64,000 nucleotides of DNA. Source: Mycoplasma sp. (GTDB lineage Bacteria; Bacillota_I; Bacilli_A; Mycoplasmatales; Metamycoplasmataceae). The DNA lies in contig JAAVAX010000001.1 of NCBI GenBank assembly GCA_014803855.1, positions 3,842 to 67,841 on the forward strand. Direction: 5' to 3'. Positions 4,064 to 49,230 of the stretch are shown here, one piece after another. Both the position numbers and the translations under genes were made by a program. The notes under the pieces are model-generated. The model did not search any database. It was given only the letters and a program-made list of their open reading frames with translations, and was not told the origin of the DNA. The first letter of the stretch is position 1. Each line of letters opens with the position of its first letter.

Positions 4064-4096
4064 TATAATTTTGGGTGACAGTGGTAGAAAGTGGGT
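4064..4096 (+). promoter_or_regulatory. mraZ promoter -10 and three-box MraZ operator
   Basis: A consensus TATAAT lies at 4064-4069. Immediately downstream come three boxes, TGGGT (4072-4076), TGGTA (4082-4086) and TGGGT (4092-4096), each ten bases apart and each separated by five bases. TGGGN-N5 repeats are the known MraZ binding pattern. Transcription would start at about 4076, so bound MraZ would cover the start site and the ribosome-binding region of its own gene. No good Shine-Dalgarno sequence precedes the ATG at 4102, consistent with a very short leader. Autorepression is inferred. Confidence 0.85.
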
Positions 4097-4101
4097 GAAA
4101 A

Positions 4102-4545
4102 ATGTTTACAGGGCAATTTGAACGTAGTGTCGATTCTAAAAATAGAGTAGTCCTACCTCCAAATATCAAAAATTCTTTAGGAAACATTTTTTACTTAACC
4201 ATTTCTTCTGGAAAAAAATTAGAAATAAGAAGCACTGAAGAATTTGAGAATTTTGTAGATAAAATTGATCAAAACAATCAATTAGATCCATTAATTCAAA
4301 AATATAAAAGATTTATTATGTCTCAAACTGTAAGGATTGAAACAGATAAATTAGGTAGATTCTTAATTCCTGATAATTTTCTAAAAGCTATTGCTGTCAA
4401 AACAACAGTTTCATTTGTTGGTATGGGAAGAATAGTAGAAGTGTGAGCTTCTGAAGTTCTTCAAATGCAACTTGATGAATTGAAGGATGAATCAACTATT
4501 GATGATTTAGCTTCTGAAATGCTTAAAAAAGGATTTAAATTATAA
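4102..4545 (+). CDS. mraZ: Transcriptional regulator MraZ
   Basis: 147 residues, normal family length. Two AbrB-like half-domains are present, each with the diagnostic DxxxR motif: DSKNR near residue 12 and DKLGR near 78. MraZ forms ring oligomers that bind tandem TGGGN boxes and control the division cluster; three such boxes precede this gene. A TGA Trp follows GRIVEV near residue 115. The stop codon overlaps the rsmH start (TAATG), so the two are translationally linked. It heads the cluster mraZ-rsmH-FtsA-like-ftsZ. Confidence 0.97.
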
Positions 4546-5435
4546 TGCATGTGCCTGTTATGCTTAATGAAGTGATTCAATCACTTGATATAAAGCAAGA
4601 TGGGATATATGTTGATTTAACCTTAGGTAGAGCAGGTCACTCAGAAGCTATACTTAAAAATATCAAAAACGGAAAACTAATAGCTTTTGATAAAGACAAA
4701 ATTGCTATCAATGAATCATGAAGCCGTCTTATTAAAGTTAGTGATAATTTTGTACTAATTCATTCGGACTTTAAAAACATTAAGGATGAATTAGGTAAAC
4801 TTGGAATTAAAAAAGTTGATGGTATTATTGCTGATTTAGGAGTTTCAAGTCCTCAACTTGATAATAAGGACCGTGGATTCTCTTATAACAAGGATGGTTA
4901 TCTTGATATGAGGATGGACCAAGATCAATCATTGAAGGCATGAGATATTGTAAATAATTGAAGTGCAGAAGAACTAATAGATATTTTCACTAGTTATGCA
5001 GATGTAAAATTACCAAAAGTAATTGCGAATGCCATTATTGAAAATAGACCTATAAATTCTACATTACAACTTGTTGACATTATTAAATCCTGTTTACCAG
5101 CGAAAATTATTAGGCAAAAAAACCCGGCAAAAACTGTGTTTCAAGCAATAAGAATAGCTGTTAACAATGAACTTGAATCACTTGGTACTGTTCTAAAAGA
5201 TTCAATAGATTTTCTTAATGATGGAGGGGTGTTAGCAATAATAACCTTTCATTCAATTGAGGACAAAATCGTTAAAGAGTTTTTTGGTAAATTAATCAAA
5301 AGTAAAATTGATCCAAAAATTCCAATTCAAGAAGAAAAGAAATTTTTTGTCAAAACTATATATCCAACAAAAGATGAAATTCAATCTAACAAAAGATCAC
5401 GAAGTGCAAAATTAAGAGTTTTAAAAAAAATATAA
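4545..5435 (+). CDS. rsmH: 16S rRNA (cytosine(1402)-N(4))-methyltransferase RsmH
   Basis: 296 residues. It methylates N4 of C1402 in the P site of 16S rRNA using S-adenosylmethionine. The N-terminus [14 protein letters not shown] is typical; the SAM loop reads [10 protein letters not shown] (the usual GGxGHS has Arg in place of one Gly). [31 protein letters not shown] and the C-terminal [16 protein letters not shown] are all diagnostic. The start was chosen because the ATG overlaps the mraZ stop and gives the conserved N-terminus. TGA Trp codons occur at three places. 11 bases separate it from the next gene. Confidence 0.97.
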
Positions 5436-5446
5436 AGGAGTTTTTT

Positions 5447-6736
5447 ATGAATGATATAAATGTTAATGCTTTAATTAGTTATGACAATATAAAAATTATT
5501 GCAGTTGCTGAAAAAAACAATAATATTATTAATATTCATGAAGAATCCATTTCATCAAATAATAGTTTAAGTAAAAGAGACATAAAAGTTTCTATTAAGA
5601 AAGCTATAAATGCTATTGAAGAGAAATTATCAAAAAAAATTAATTCAATAAACATTATATTTGATGATTTTATGAAAAGCTCTGAACATTTAAAATTTTC
5701 TACAAAAATAGTTGAAGAAAAAATTGAATTTAGTAATAATAAATTTCTAAGCATAAATGACTGCAACAAAATCATTGATGATATGTATGAAAAGTCAAAA
5801 AATGCCGAAGTTGACAAAAAGCTAATTTCAATTACACCATTTAAATTTATTTATGTAGAAGATGTTGAAACTTTTGAAAAAGAATCTCCATCTTTTCCAG
5901 TGGATAAAAGGATTAAGAAATTAAAAGTATTGTTTTCAATTAGATACATGGATAAAAGTAGTTATTTAGCTTCTATTGATTTGTTTGATTTATTAAACAT
6001 TAAAATAAAAGACATTATATTGGATTCACAAATTGCAATATATGATAATAATGAAAATGCTATTTTAAATAGTGATAATGAAACAAGTTTTACATTGGCA
6101 ATTGAAAATAACAAAACTATGTTAATAACTAGTGTGAATAATATTGTTATTAAAACTGACAATTTAAACTTTTCATTTTCAAATCTAATTAAAAAAATTG
6201 CTTATGATTTTGGTATCTCAACATATGAGGCAAAAAAAATAATAAATTGTTATGGTAAATTGAATGACAATGGAGATAACAATAAAGAAATTATTTACTT
6301 TTCACATTCATCTAATGGTGAAATCTCAAAATCAATTAAAGTGTTAGATGTTATAAATATAACAAAATCATTTCTAAAATCTATCTGTATACAAGCTAAT
6401 GATTTAATAAAATCAAGAATAAATAAGTCGAATTTATTTTCAAGTGTTGAATTAAAATTTGTAGGACAATTATCAAAAATTAATAATGTTACAAATTATT
6501 GCTCAAAGTATTTTGAAAAAGTTAAAATTGCTTTAGATAATAAAAATGAATCAATTTATGAGTGGAATAAACCATTTATGAGTATTAGAAATTATTTAAT
6601 TTATACTAAAGTTCTAAATAATTTAAAATCAGAAAGTTTTTATTACAATAGTAACTATGTAAATAATAATTACAAAAGAGATCATTTATTTGTTGAATCA
6701 ACAACAAAACAAAGTTCTTCATTATTATTAGTCTAA
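5447..6736 (+). CDS. Divergent FtsA-like / hypothetical division-cluster protein
   Basis: 429 residues, cytoplasmic, Lys/Asn/Ile-rich, no signal peptide or membrane segment. AAAGGAG precedes the ATG. Its place between rsmH and ftsZ is that of ftsA in other bacteria and of an uncharacterised gene in related mycoplasmas. Length is close to FtsA (about 420) and the N-terminus (NVNALISYDNIKIIAV) could be a first actin-like strand pair, but the classical phosphate-loop motifs are not obvious, nor is a C-terminal membrane-binding amphipathic helix. FtsA function is therefore an inference from position and size; it may be a mollicute-specific FtsZ partner. Confidence 0.6.
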   Translation: MNDINVNALISYDNIKIIAVAEKNNNIINIHEESISSNNSLSKRDIKVSIKKAINAIEEKLSKKINSINIIFDDFMKSSEHLKFSTKIVEEKIEFSNNKFLSINDCNKIIDDMYEKSKNAEVDKKLISITPFKFIYVEDVETFEKESPSFPVDKRIKKLKVLFSIRYMDKSSYLASIDLFDLLNIKIKDIILDSQIAIYDNNENAILNSDNETSFTLAIENNKTMLITSVNNIVIKTDNLNFSFSNLIKKIAYDFGISTYEAKKIINCYGKLNDNGDNNKEIIYFSHSSNGEISKSIKVLDVINITKSFLKSICIQANDLIKSRINKSNLFSSVELKFVGQLSKINNVTNYCSKYFEKVKIALDNKNESIYEWNKPFMSIRNYLIYTKVLNNLKSESFYYNSNYVNNNYKRDHLFVESTTKQSSSLLLV

Positions 6737-6754
6737 TTATTTAAGGAGATAAAG

Positions 6755-7930
6755 TTGATACTATCAGATGATTTAATGAATTTATCAGTAATTGGTGTTG
6801 GTGATGCAGGATGTAAAGCAGTTGATTCCATTTCAAAAGATAATATTGATGGAATAAAGTGTATGTATATTAATACTAATAAAAATTCATTAAAAGATTA
6901 TGATGAAAACTACTCAATTTTATTGAATGATGATAATGGTAATAATTTAGGAAATTCAGGTGATCCAATTGTTGGAAAAACTGCTGCCCTTAGTTCTTTA
7001 GATTTAATAAAAAGTAAATTGAAAGATACTAAATCATTAATTTTAACAGCTGGTTTTGGTGGTGGAACTGGAACTGGAGCATTACCAATTATTGCTAAAG
7101 CTGCAAAGGAAATGGGAATTTTAACTATAGCAATAGTTACAACTCCTTTTTCTTATGAAGGTATAGCAAAAGATCTTAATGCTAAAATTGGATTAGAAGA
7201 TTTAAATAAAAATGCTGATGTTATTATCAGAATTTCTAATAATCGTATAATCAACAATTATCCAGACATCATATTATCAGATGTTTTTAAATTAATTAAT
7301 AAAGTTTTAAAAAATTCAATAAATTATTTCATTAATTTATTTTCAAACAACTCCATCAATGTTTCTAAAAGTGATTTAATAAATTCTTTAAAAAACAAAG
7401 GAGAATCATATATCGGATTTGGTTCTGGAGTTGGTAAAAACAAAATTGCTAGAGCTATAAATGAAGTTGTTAATTCAAAAATAATTGAAACACAATTTAA
7501 CAAATCGACAAATGCAGTAATGATGATTGTTGGAGATCCAACAATTACACTAAATCAAATCAATAGTATTGTTGATGAAATTAAGTTGAGATCAAAAAAT
7601 AATAATTTAAATGTTATTTTTTCATTTAAAACTGATGATAGTTTAGTAAATGAAATAAGAATATCATTAATATCAACATTTTTATCAAAACATGATAGTG
7701 AGATCAAATCTGAAAATGAAAAAATCTTACAAGAATCACAAGAATTATTGTTAGAAATTGGAAATACTTTGGATAATGAAATGAATGGTTACATTACTGG
7801 AGAACTTGATTTATCTTTATTTAGTAATGAAAAGATAAACAATCAAATTGATGATAAAGATCAAGATGACTCAATTATTATAAGTGATGAAAACAAAGAT
7901 GATGATGACATTCCGTTCTTTTTAAAATAA
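6755..7930 (+). CDS. ftsZ: Cell division protein FtsZ (TTG start, unusual T7 loop)
   Basis: 391 residues. The tubulin-like GTPase polymerises into the division ring. The nucleotide signature GGGTGTG is intact at residues 102-108, with VIGVGDAGCKA near 12-22. The T7 synergy loop, normally NxDxxD, reads N202-V-S-K-S-D207: the first catalytic Asp is replaced by Ser while the second remains. The extreme C-terminus DIPFFLK matches the conserved partner-binding tail (DIPAFL-type). TTG at 6755 is chosen because AAGGAG (6743-6748) sits six bases before it; the next ATG (6776) would be far from any ribosome site. An acidic linker precedes the tail. A bidirectional terminator follows. Confidence 0.95.
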   Translation: MILSDDLMNLSVIGVGDAGCKAVDSISKDNIDGIKCMYINTNKNSLKDYDENYSILLNDDNGNNLGNSGDPIVGKTAALSSLDLIKSKLKDTKSLILTAGFGGGTGTGALPIIAKAAKEMGILTIAIVTTPFSYEGIAKDLNAKIGLEDLNKNADVIIRISNNRIINNYPDIILSDVFKLINKVLKNSINYFINLFSNNSINVSKSDLINSLKNKGESYIGFGSGVGKNKIARAINEVVNSKIIETQFNKSTNAVMMIVGDPTITLNQINSIVDEIKLRSKNNNLNVIFSFKTDDSLVNEIRISLISTFLSKHDSEIKSENEKILQESQELLLEIGNTLDNEMNGYITGELDLSLFSNEKINNQIDDKDQDDSIIISDENKDDDDIPFFLK

Positions 7931-43332: not shown

Positions 43333-44076
43333 ATGCCCAAAATAATTGAAAACAAAATCTTAGATTACATTAAAAAACATAAAATTGTCAAATCAAGAGA
43401 AATTGAAAAATATTTTAATTTAACTCAATCTTCAGCAAGAAGATATTTAATTAAATTAGAAGAACAAGGTTATATCAATAGAACTTTTGGTGAAATTATT
43501 TTAAAAGACAATCATAGTTTTCAAGATCAAGATTTTGAAAAAAAAATTAACTCCAATTTGAATGTAAAAAAGTCAATAGCTAAATATGCATCCAAATTAT
43601 CTCTAGGGTATAAAACAGTATTTGTTGACTCAGGAAGTCTATGTTACTTTTTGCTTCAATACTTAGATAAAAAAGTAGAGTTATTTACAAATTCATTATC
43701 AAACGCTAAAAGAGCAATTGATTTAGGATTTGAAAATGTTAATATCCTTGGAGGTGTAATAAAACCTGAAACTAAATCAATAGTTGAATTTAATGAAGAA
43801 GAATTAAATAAAATAGTATTTCCAATTTCCTTCTTAGGTGTTAATGCTATTGATGATGAAGGGAATTTATATACACCTGAAAAAAGAGAGGCAAAAGCTA
43901 AAAATAATATAATCAAAAAAACATTAATTACTATTGTTCTTGCCGAAGAAGAAAAATTTAGTTTTAAATCAACATTTAAATTTAATGATGATGATTCAAA
44001 AATTATTATTGTTTCAAATATTAAAAACAAGAAAATAGAAAATGAAAATGTTCAAATAATAAATACAAAGGATTAA
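43333..44076 (+). CDS. DeoR family transcriptional regulator (FruR-like)
   Basis: 247 residues. N-terminal winged helix-turn-helix (residues about 1-55, IVKSREIEKYFNLTQSSARRYLIKLEEQGYI), then the sugar-phosphate sensing domain with KKSIAKYASKL, VFVDSGSLCYFLLQYL, LFTNSLSNAKRAI, VNILGGVIKPETKSIVE and the family-typical FLGVNAIDDEGNLYTP. Position directly before the fructose PTS gene points to a fructose-operon repressor that responds to fructose 1-phosphate. Confidence 0.92.
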   Translation: MPKIIENKILDYIKKHKIVKSREIEKYFNLTQSSARRYLIKLEEQGYINRTFGEIILKDNHSFQDQDFEKKINSNLNVKKSIAKYASKLSLGYKTVFVDSGSLCYFLLQYLDKKVELFTNSLSNAKRAIDLGFENVNILGGVIKPETKSIVEFNEEELNKIVFPISFLGVNAIDDEGNLYTPEKREAKAKNNIIKKTLITIVLAEEEKFSFKSTFKFNDDDSKIIIVSNIKNKKIENENVQIINTKD

Positions 44077-44085
44077 GGATTAAAA

Positions 44086-46245
44086 ATGAATTTTAATGAG
44101 TTTTTTAAGAATGATTTGATTGTCCTAGATAAATCATATAGTTCAAAAGAAAAAGCTCTTGAAAGTTTTGCCAAAATTCTTGTTGACAAAGGTTATGCTT
44201 CTGATAAAAAACGTGTTGTTGAAATGGCAATGAAAAGAGAAGCAGAGAGTTCAACTGGAATAGGTGAAGGTATTGCTATTCCTCACATCAGAGATGATGT
44301 TATGAAAGAATCTGTAATATTTTTTGCAAGAGTTAATTCTATGGATTGAGATTCACTAGATGGTCAACCAGTTAATTATGTATTCTTTATTGCACTAAAT
44401 CCCACCAGTAGTGGATCTCATGTTGAGATATTAGCTGCACTAATGAAATTGTTCATGAATGAACAGTTCAAAAAAGAACTTGAAAAAGTAAAAACAATTC
44501 CTGCATTAGTTAAACTAATGAATAAATTTAATAAAGAAGAAGAAAAAGAAGCTGCAAAAGAAGCTACTTCTTCAAATGATGGTAACTATGATATTGTTGC
44601 TGTAACTGCATGTCCTACTGGAATTGCTCATACATTTATGGCAAGGGACATGCTTGAAAAAGCTGCAAAAGAAATGAATATTAAAATTAAAGTTGAAACA
44701 CAAGGTGCTGATGGTGCTAAAAATGTTTTAACAGATCAAGATATAAAAAATGCTAAAGGTGTTTTAATTGCTTGTGATAGAGTTGTAGAATTATCTAAAT
44801 TCTCAGGTCACCCAAATGTATTAGAAATGGGTACCAAACCTGTTATTAAAGATGCAAAAAAAGAAATTCAAAAACTTTTAGATGGTCAAGGTGTGAAATT
44901 TGAAGGAAATTCAAAACAAAAAGAATCTTCTTCAGATGATAATAATCAAGAAATGTCATTTAATGGATTTGGTAAAAGATTATATAAATCATTAATGACT
45001 GGGGTTTCATATATGCTACCATTTGTGGTATTTGGTGGAATTCTAATTGCTATAGCATTCTTATTTGATATGGCAAATTCAGGTCAAAGTGATTTTGGTT
45101 CAGTTTCTCCTGCTGCTAAATGATTTAAAACATTAGGAGACTTATCATTTGGAATGATGGTTCCTATTATTGGTGCTTACATTACTTTTGCTATTGTTGG
45201 TCGTCAAGGTCTATTACCAGGATTTATAGTTGGATTAATGGCTCAAGGTAAATTTTTATTTAGTTTAAATCCTGAAACTGGTGTAGTTGATTGATTTACA
45301 ACAGCTGAAGCATCTGGGGGGGGTTCATCAGGAATTTTTGGAGCTATTGTTGGTGCATTTTTAGCTGCTGCTATTTTAATTGCACTTGTAAAATATGTTT
45401 TTGTTTACTTACCTGCAGCACTTTCAGGTATAAAAAACATTTTAATTATTCCGCTATTTGGAACATTAGCAATTGCTACTGCATTTTGAATAGTTAATAT
45501 CCCAATGATTTATGTAAACTATGGATTTACAAAATTCTTAGAATTAATGGATGGTAGACCATATTTAGCATGATTATTAGGAATGATTATTGGAGCAATG
45601 ATGGCTGTTGACCTTGGTGGACCAATCAATAAAGCAGCTTATGTATTTTCAATAACATCATTAGAAGCTGCAAAAGGAGAAGGTACAATATCAATGGCTG
45701 CTGCAATGGCTGGTGGTATGACTCCTCCTATTGGAATTGCTCTATGTTGTACATTCTTCAAAAAAATGTGAACTGATGATGAAAGAAAAACAGGAATGTT
45801 AAACTACATTATGGGATTAACATTTATTTCTGAAGGAGCTATTCCATTTACATTGAGTAAACCTAAAGTTATAATTCCTGCTAATGTTATTGGTGGAGCT
45901 ATAACTGGATTATTAATTGGAGCTTTAGGTGTTAGAATTTCTGCACCTCATGGTGGAATATTAACAGTTGCTTTATGTAAAACTGACTACATGCAAGGTG
46001 GAGCTTCAATTGGATTAGGTATATTATTCTTTATTGCTGCTATTGTTGTGGGTTCAGTTGTAGAAATGTTCTTTATTGTTTTATTCAACAAAATATTTTC
46101 AAATAAATCAAACAACAAAAAAGAAAATAATGTTGAAAATAAAACAAGAGTAAGAAAATCTTTTGCAAGAAAATCAGGAGCAGTAAAAGCACAAATTAAA
46201 AATGATAATTTCAACTCAAATTTATTATTATCTAATCAAATATAA
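44086..46245 (+). CDS. fruA: PTS fructose transporter, fused EIIABC
   Basis: 719 residues. Imports fructose and phosphorylates it to fructose 1-phosphate. EIIA domain with phospho-His in [10 protein letters not shown] (H67); EIIB with active Cys in [11 protein letters not shown] (C176) and [10 protein letters not shown] linker; EIIC from about residue 300 with eight or so membrane helices and [40 protein letters not shown] precedes the ATG. A run of eight G bases (45316-45323) encodes three glycines near residue 411; the frame is open as sequenced. The charged C-terminal tail is unusual. fruK follows after three bases. Confidence 0.96.
45316..45323 (+). repeat. Homopolymeric G8 tract inside fruA
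   Basis: Eight consecutive G bases code GGG-GGG-GG(T) in frame. In this AT-rich genome Gly is nearly always GGA or GGT, so the run stands out. A one-base slip would shift the EIIC frame. Confidence 0.9.
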
Positions 46246-46248
46246 ATC

Positions 46249-47160
46249 ATGATCTATACTATAACTTTTTCTCCTTCTATTGATTATGTAATCAATACCA
46301 AGGAAAATTTTGATCAAAATGATTTAAATCGAGTTGATAATTATGAATTCTTACCAGGTGGTAAAGGAATTAATGCTTCTATTGTTTTAAAAAGAATTGG
46401 ATTTGAAAACAAAGCTATTACTTTTTTAGGTGGTAGCACAAAAAATTTATTTCTTGATTTAATGAATAAAGAAAAAGTTGATTTTATTAACTTTGATTCT
46501 ACTAATGATACAAGAATAAATGTAAAAATGTTTGCAAATAACTCTACATTTGAAATCAATGGAACAAGAGCAAAAATATCTAATGATGAATATGAGAAAT
46601 TATTAAACCTTATTGATAAATTAGATAAAAATGATTTTGTTTTCATTATGGGAATATGTGAAGAAGAATTCCTAAAAAAATTAGTAGAAAAAATTCATTC
46701 TAAAGGAATTAAATTTGCACTAGATATAGATTCTAAAGTTGTGCTTGATCTATTAAAATATAATCCATTTATCATTAAGCCAAATAGAAGTGAATTAGAA
46801 TCACTTCTAAATACTAAAATTAATTCTATTGAAGATATGAAAAAAGCTATGATTTCATTAAAATCAAAAGGTTTACAAAATTTAATGGTTTCTGATGGTG
46901 GTAAAGGATCATATTTCATTAGTGAAGATAACAAATGTTATCAAATAACACTTAAAAAGAAATTTGACATTGTTTCTACTGTTGGCGCTGGAGATACATT
47001 AATTTCTTCTTTTACATCAATATATTACAAATCAAATGATGTAATAAGATCATTAAAAGAAGCTACATCATTATCAATCGGGACTTCATGTACAAGATTT
47101 TTAGCTTCAAAAGAAGATCAAACTAAATACATTGATGATGTTGAAGTTAAAGAAATATAA
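46249..47160 (+). CDS. fruK: 1-phosphofructokinase
   Basis: 303 residues. Phosphorylates fructose 1-phosphate to fructose 1,6-bisphosphate. PfkB/ribokinase-type: ITFSPSIDYVI, LPGGKGINASIVLKRIG (substrate Gly-Gly motif), IKPNRSELESLL, and the catalytic VSTVGAGDTLISSF (Asp base) near residue 249. Starts three bases after fruA, completing regulator-transporter-kinase. A terminator follows. Confidence 0.96.
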   Translation: MIYTITFSPSIDYVINTKENFDQNDLNRVDNYEFLPGGKGINASIVLKRIGFENKAITFLGGSTKNLFLDLMNKEKVDFINFDSTNDTRINVKMFANNSTFEINGTRAKISNDEYEKLLNLIDKLDKNDFVFIMGICEEEFLKKLVEKIHSKGIKFALDIDSKVVLDLLKYNPFIIKPNRSELESLLNTKINSIEDMKKAMISLKSKGLQNLMVSDGGKGSYFISEDNKCYQITLKKKFDIVSTVGAGDTLISSFTSIYYKSNDVIRSLKEATSLSIGTSCTRFLASKEDQTKYIDDVEVKEI

Positions 47161-47631: not shown

Positions 47632-49230
47632 TTATTTTCAAATTGAATCTAAAGTATCAAATCTATTTTTCAATCATGATTTTAAATAATCAGCTGCTTC
47701 TTTTTGAGTAGTGCAACCTCAATTAGCTTCTGATTTTATAGCATAATATAAATCATCATAATTAGATGTCTCATTTGGGTTTTTATTATTTTCATTTTTC
47801 TTAACTTCTTCTTCAATGTATGGAGCAATGTTTTTTCACTTGTCATAATTAGCTTTATAGTTAGATACATATAAGTTTGATATATCATCAATATATCTTA
47901 ATATTTTATCCTGCACTAAATGTTCTTTCATTTCAGCTCATCTATCTTTAATTAATTTTTTAATTAAATCAGATGAATACAAAATTTTTAACCATGGATT
48001 GGTTGTATATCAATATTCAATAAATGATCCATTATAATCATCTGATAGATTTGCAGGAGGTAAATCTTCACACATACCTAAAGCAAAATCAAAATCTCAT
48101 GGTGCTTGAAAATGTAACTTACCGTTACCAGTTGGACTTAAATCAATACTCATGTAAAAACTAGAATTGTTAACATCATAATCACAAATAATTTCTTGTA
48201 ATATGCACAATGATACAACTGAATTTATATCAACAACATTTTCAAGTGCTTTATTTGGATCACTAATAGTTGTAGATTTAACAATATCAGTTTTATCATT
48301 ATTAAATTCTCAACATTCTTTTTTAACAATAGATCTATAAATGATCTTGTAAATATTTTCTAAATATTTTTCAATGAATGTTCTTTGTGTTTCATTATAT
48401 ATTTTGCTTTTTATTGTGTATGTATTAATTGGAGATATTATACTTTCTCCTTCATAATCAATTTTTATTTGTTCTAATGCTGGTTCAAAACGAGCATAAG
48501 AATCCATTTCTAATAAATATCCAATGTTAGTTCCTTGATAATCAGTAACCGGTTTTTCAATATTTACTCTTTCTGTAGCAACTTCATTTTGCTCACAAAG
48601 TAAATAAACGCCTCAATATTCACCATTTAAATATAGTTCAACATTAACAAAGTCACTTGCATAAAGACCTTGATCTTTATATAAAAATTGACCTAAATAT
48701 AGACCAACATTATTACGTAGCATAGAAACATCTCTTCAATTAGCCAAAAGAACTCAATCTTTAAATGCATATTTATTATTTAAAGACAACATTTCTTGAT
48801 TCTCTGTGAATTTTATTCTAAAAGGTTTTTTGTCATATATTGTGGTAGTGTTTCCACGAACTTTTACTTGTGCTAATAAATCTTTTCTAATTAAATTATC
48901 ATCTAAATTTTCAACTGTGATTGTTGCATTTTGATAAGGGAATTCTTGCTTTACAAAATCATATGAATCATTTCCATCTGAGACATAAATATCTTTTCTT
49001 TCAGTTGCAAAAGTATTGTTTTTATCTTGTGTATCAATTCTTATAATTGGCATCTTCTTATATAAATGTGGTTCATAACTATATGGAGTATTAGGATTGG
49101 TTGGTGTAGGTGGTATTGGATCTATCGGGTTTTGACCATTATCATTTTTTGCACAACTTGTAATAATAAAAGTACTACCAACTAGTAATACTGGTGATCA
49201 TGCACATAATAAACTCTTTTTCAATTTCAT
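47632..49230 (-). CDS. CotH-family kinase-like lipoprotein
   Basis: 532 residues. Signal peptide with lipobox ending at C26 (FIITSCAKN), then a Pro-rich spacer (DPIPPTPTNPNTP), so the protein should sit outside on the membrane. The rest matches the CotH family: KVRGNTTTIYDKKPFRIKF (from residue 125), KDWVLLANWRDVSMLRN, NGEYWGVYLLCEQ, D352 in DYDVNNSSFYM, and PWDFDFALG at 377-385. The Asp residues correspond to the catalytic/metal residues of the atypical kinase fold that in Bacillus phosphorylates spore-coat proteins. Nine or more TGA Trp codons. No spore here, so the substrate would be another surface protein; that is inference. No ribosome site before the ATG; an inverted repeat lies there instead. 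Confidence 0.85.

Follow-up and report, generated by a model that had tools for sequence, protein, structure and literature searches.

A CotH-family lipoprotein with a kinase-like fold and retained catalytic positions in a mycoplasma genome

The CotH gene and its surroundings

The window, the whole stretch of 64,000 nucleotides of Mycoplasma sp. DNA analysed here, contains on its minus strand an intact gene for a CotH-family lipoprotein, read as a single open reading frame of 532 codons in genetic code 4 (Table 1). Residue numbers are counted from the ATG at 49230; an alternative TTG lies two codons 5′ of it. The gene is read in the mycoplasma code because TGA accounts for 12 of its 13 Trp codons, and its G+C content is 26%, as compared with 24% for the window. 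It is located inside a 112-kb contig, with mycoplasma housekeeping genes on both sides, in a draft genome of 11 contigs.

Table 1. Features of the CotH gene and its product, in window coordinates
Feature	Position	Strand	Details
CotH-family lipoprotein gene	47632..49230	-	532 aa, ATG start at 49230, TAA stop at 47632-47634, code 4
Predicted lipoprotein signal peptide, lipobox ITSC, putative lipidated Cys26 at 49153-49155	49153..49230	-	Read from translation
CotH kinase-fold domain (PF08757), residues 122-523	47662..48867	-	Profile match, model, structure comparison
RGN motif, residues 125-127	48850..48858	-	R and G invariant in 38/38
Tyr238, adenine-sandwich position, aligned to Tyr142 of Bacillus CotH	48517..48519	-	Alignment
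Asp352, catalytic Asp, PKA D166 position	48175..48177	-	Alignment
Ser357, PKA N171 position; Asn in B. cereus CotH	48160..48162	-	Ser in 38/38
WDFD, residues 378-381: Trp378 (adenine sandwich), Asp379 (PKA D184 position)	48088..48099	-	Alignment

The neighbours of the CotH gene are fruRAK, a 106-aa open reading frame, and pyrG. The fructose operon, of the fruR-fruA-fruK type (window 43333-47160), adjoins the CotH gene and converges on it. No Ser/Lys/Arg-rich partner gene like cotB or cotG is located next to the CotH gene, and no conserved gene order is present around pyrG in the genus, where the order is scrambled. Since the neighbourhoods of the CotH genes are different in every mycoplasma carrier, no partner is readable from gene order. 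Promoter-like sites are no more numerous than in shuffled sequence, and no Rfam RNA was found in the 42-56 kb interval of the window. Elsewhere in the window (4075-7930), a cluster of mraZ, rsmH, ftsA-like, and ftsZ-like genes is retained in a wall-less organism.

The translation indicates that the protein begins with a signal peptide and lipobox Cys as in mycoplasma surface lipoproteins. In particular, the N-terminus, MKLKKSLLCAWSPVLLVGSTFIITSC, has, as judged by eye, basic residues at its start, followed by a hydrophobic core and by a lipobox extending to Cys26. In the six other mycoplasma CotH copies, too, a hydrophobic leader that runs up to a lipobox-like Cys is discernible by eye.

Fold and active-site residues of the CotH domain

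The sole Pfam match of the window protein is PF08757 (CotH; E = 8.6e-34), which covers profile positions 1-318 of 322 with a score of 117.9 bits, versus a curated cut-off of 23.8; NCBIfam yielded no usable match. An alignment-profile search of PDB sequences identified 5jd9 and 5jda alone with confidence (E = 2.2e-15). The profile was needed for this result, phmmer with the single window sequence giving no match in the PDB. An AlphaFold2 model was computed from a 38-sequence CotH alignment with a mean column identity of 26%, and has a mean pLDDT of 83.5 and a pTM of 0.86. The model is poor solely at residues 1-40, corresponding to the leader and linker, and in a short loop at residues 394-398. 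A Foldseek search of the PDB with the model as query returned the B. cereus CotH structures 5jd9 (E = 1.5e-12) and 5jda (E = 4.2e-12), and no other entry below 0.001. VIA-align superimposed the model on 5jd9 with a Z-score of 26.2 (338 residues, 3.5 Å); the best non-CotH fold was PI4K II (Z 12.1), with CtkA and HipA, both kinases, at about 10. The profile match and the model indicate that the window protein carries a full-length CotH domain, with a predicted CotH-type atypical kinase fold.

The alignment places the expected active-site residues in two motifs: DYDVNN, which includes D352, and PWDFDFALG, which includes W378, D379, and D381. Across the 38 CotH sequences, R125, G126, D167, G207, D352, S357, W378, and D379 are invariant. 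Position 238 is occupied by Tyr in every mycoplasma copy and by Tyr or Phe in the remaining sequences; the seven mycoplasma copies thus keep D352, D379, Y238, and W378 throughout. In the profile alignment to 5jd9, D352 stands opposite the Asp in TQNFDG, and W378-D379 opposite the WD in PWDYD. With 5jd9 numbering taken as the PDB sequence index minus one, the offset that places Trp at 245, Tyr142 and Trp245 fall on Y238 and W378, a correspondence of aligned positions rather than of geometry. From what is known of the family, we take D352 to be the counterpart of Asp228 of B. subtilis CotH. Substitution of Asp228 by Gln abolishes kinase activity (PMC7821199), and CotH is reviewed as retaining residues that match PKA D166, N171, and D184, with Tyr142 and Trp245 sandwiching the adenine (PMC12189002). 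The Asn at the PKA N171 position is absent from the window protein, as from all 38 aligned sequences, and because S357 replaces it the protein was not classed as a spore-coat CotH.

A preliminary description of the locus had recognized a CotH-family lipoprotein with intact catalytic Asp residues, and had proposed as checks a structure prediction and a comparison of mollicute homologues. The family assignment is borne out by the full-length PF08757 match, the leader with its lipobox agrees with the proposed lipoprotein signal, and the invariance of D352 and D379 in 38 of 38 sequences upholds the catalytic pair. Both checks were run: the model returned CotH, with no different fold, and both Asp residues are kept in every mycoplasma copy.

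The window protein is thus like the Bacillus CotH spore-coat kinase (5jd9/5jda, PF08757) in fold, in the catalytic Asp pair, and in the positions of the Tyr/Trp sandwich. It differs in sequence (about 14% identity), in being a predicted exported lipoprotein rather than a spore-coat protein, in the Ser for Asn at PKA-N171, in standing without cotB/cotG neighbours, and in its mycoplasma host. Fam20C, a secretory-pathway kinase, also has a kinase-like fold acting on exported proteins; its Z-score of 7.4 is within the background range, and according to published work it is no more than a distant relative.

Distribution, descent, and stalk architecture

CotH is common in the class and very rare in mycoplasmas. 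Specifically, 112 of the 395 genomes in a sample of the class encode CotH-domain proteins, several of which have lipoprotein-like N-termini; the corresponding figures are 2 of 135 genomes for the window's family and 5 of 320 for its order. The other carrier of the same genus, G500, is an uncultured Mycoplasma sp. (record CASDWL010000055.1). Judged by the part of the literature covered, in which no report of CotH from mycoplasmas or Spiroplasma was found, the protein belongs to a known enzyme family that is new to mycoplasmas.

A maximum-likelihood tree of the 38 CotH domains unites all seven mycoplasma copies in a single clade (100/99), which is nested among code-11 Bacilli; members of families f8, f17, and f21 of these Bacilli fall outside it. 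The nearest relatives in the tree are lipoprotein-like CotH proteins of non-Mycoplasmatales Bacilli (L038-L043), which are 34-40% identical and likewise have a lipoprotein-type leader followed by CotH. These proteins differ in using code 11, in having linkers that are often Ser-rich, and in being without the mycoplasma stalk repeats; some of their genomes have VTC. A phylum-wide sample contained no closer outside relative among the matches listed, all of which are of the same class, and a donor from elsewhere is conceivable.

The tree supports a single entry from another Bacilli lineage, followed by spread or patchy loss among mycoplasmas. Within the clade, copies from families f1 and f3 are intermixed: that of G500 (f1) pairs with that of G640 (f3; 100/96), which points to transfer between mycoplasmas. 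One entry with subsequent transfer between mycoplasmas fits best, because so few genomes of the order carry the gene and the neighbourhood is different each time; an ancient gene lost nearly everywhere is possible and would need many losses. The dN/dS between the two copies of this genome is 0.40 at about 70% identity, indicating that selection maintains both. Other CotH pairs give values of 0.45-0.82, inflated by saturated synonymous sites in A+T-rich DNA.

Carriage by a phage or plasmid was considered and rejected: viral contigs contained no relative, and the CotH proteins of plasmids and phages are distant (at most about 27% identity). Mycobacteriophages of 110-114 kb (MK524516.1, MZ622169.1, and about 20 others) encode a CotH-like protein near 36 kb, annotated as hypothetical, kinase, or minor tail protein. 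A connection to polyphosphate by way of VTC was also rejected, VTC being missing from all five CotH-bearing mycoplasmas. The VTC polyphosphate polymerase gene is located a few genes from CotH in one code-11 relative (L079:2062-7645, G178:C5); the control genomes of C. glutamicum and M. acetivorans also match both families.

The mycoplasma copies differ in architecture. Linkers are short in the window copy and in that of G572. The second copy of this genome (G000:C3:12508-13977), 69% identical to the window copy, forms the C-terminal part of an 824-aa lipoprotein with three repeats of about 95 residues, and related repeats are present in a 560-aa lipoprotein without CotH in the same genome (L088:1144-2826, G000:C1:110 kb). 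Near this paralogue (L034:4614-18559, G000:C3) are a type I restriction HsdR-like gene, an HNH-like open reading frame, and two more lipoprotein genes; its surroundings are likely a variable region. The G500 copy has four repeats; their relatives form stalks of several further surface proteins, spread over three of these genomes. Its gene (L035:3574-6389, G500:C55) is split near the 3′ end by a frameshift, at which no long homopolymer is present, and is either a pseudogene or the product of an assembly error. G631 has two CotH lipoproteins in tandem, one of which (L072:4059-7205) contains PF04200 Lipoprotein_17 repeats (E = 4.9e-10, four stretches), repeats that Pfam did not find in the window protein, and G640 encodes a 1354-aa CotH protein with several repeats. 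These copies show the CotH head joined in several cases to native mycoplasma stalk modules, which constitutes a new architecture.

A putative ecto-kinase and its alternatives

The observed fold and residues suggest, at about even odds (probability about 0.5), that the window protein acts as a surface-anchored CotH-family ecto-kinase or a closely related phosphotransferase. In particular, the retention of nucleotide and metal positions in the CotH domain argues for catalysis. The pre-protein would be exported and lipidated at Cys26, as its signal predicts, leaving the CotH domain outside the membrane, where it would fold, as profile and model indicate, as an atypical protein kinase like Bacillus CotH. 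Nucleotide would be held between Tyr238 and Trp378, and Asp352 and Asp379, both present in the protein, would be positioned to support phosphoryl transfer. ATP would come from the host or from lysed neighbours. The acceptors, the weakest part of the proposal, may be Ser/Thr residues of the cell's own lipoproteins or of host proteins, with a possible effect on adhesion or antigenicity.

A precedent for the use of host ATP on the outside of a mycoplasma is the M. hominis surface lipoprotein OppA, which uses extracellular ATP. This ecto-ATPase causes HeLa cells to release ATP, and adhesion is supported by its ATPase activity (PMC2323007, PMC3179953); it differs from the window protein in being an unrelated Walker-type protein that hydrolyses ATP and is not known to act as a kinase. 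Phosphorylation of adhesins occurs in M. pneumoniae, but PrkC carries it out (PMC12689956), and the same review does not describe the mycoplasma kinases PrkC and HPr kinase as secreted. Points against an ecto-kinase are the Ser at the PKA-N171 position, the lack of an adjacent CotB/CotG-like partner, and the fact that extracellular ATP is assumed. A wider proposal, a horizontally spread ecto-kinase system in which CotH heads on interchangeable lipoprotein stalks (including Lipoprotein_17) act on host or self surface substrates with host ATP, is offered tentatively.

The CotH domain might instead be an adhesin, a ligand of host receptors whose catalytic residues persist because they stabilize the fold or support some minor activity. 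The Mucorales proteins CotH2, CotH3, and CotH7 are also extracellular and have PF08757 and a signal peptide, and differ in being known as GRP78 and integrin ligands: the binding partner of Rhizopus CotH2 and CotH3 is host GRP78, and that of CotH7 is integrin alpha3beta1 (PMC9973265). Moreover, heads on variable stalks, with repeats common to other surface lipoproteins, resemble mycoplasma adhesins and variable antigens. However, the two Asp residues and the two adenine-contact positions are retained in copies that share 47-71% identity with the window protein, even as their stalks turn over; a pure ligand would have no need of these residues, and we consider an adhesin doubtful. The same fold could also serve other transferase chemistry, namely lipid or glycan phosphorylation or AMP transfer at the cell surface, in keeping with PI4K II, CtkA, and HipA as the closest non-CotH folds, with the Ser at the PKA-N171 position, and with the occurrence of VTC in some code-11 relatives, in one of them near CotH. 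This chemistry is rather unlikely, given a match to the proven protein kinase CotH that is far stronger than that to PI4K and the absence of VTC from the CotH-bearing mycoplasmas.

Decay and contamination are both unlikely. The patchy presence of CotH and the G500 frameshift would be compatible with a neutral, recently gained gene heading for loss, but six of the seven mycoplasma copies, including both copies of this genome, are intact, and both the dN/dS between the two copies here and the TGA-rich Trp codons make such a fate improbable. Contamination of the assembly by a gene of another bacterium, conceivable in a draft of 11 contigs, is hardly credible for a gene with mycoplasma housekeeping flanks in a 112-kb contig, TGA as Trp, a G+C content close to that of the window, and relatives in four other mycoplasma genomes.

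The fold, together with the mounting of the domain on stalks, suggests, short of proof, phosphorylation of proteins outside the cell, in line with the surface protein phosphorylation that the preliminary description had proposed. The family, signal, Asp residues, fold, and mycoplasma host on which that proposal drew have all stood; its contrast with spore formers is weaker than implied, since more than a quarter of the sampled genomes of the class carry CotH. That description did not cover the second copy of this genome, the stalked copies, or the indications of horizontal transfer. If the ecto-kinase reading is true, a minimal, wall-less cell would have, in an intact kinase-fold enzyme on its outside, a new means of modifying its own or the host surface, and extracellular protein phosphorylation by bacteria would become testable in a very small system. 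If the protein is inactive, it would be another case of CotH reused as a surface module. The joining of a foreign catalytic head to native antigen stalks is noteworthy in its own right.
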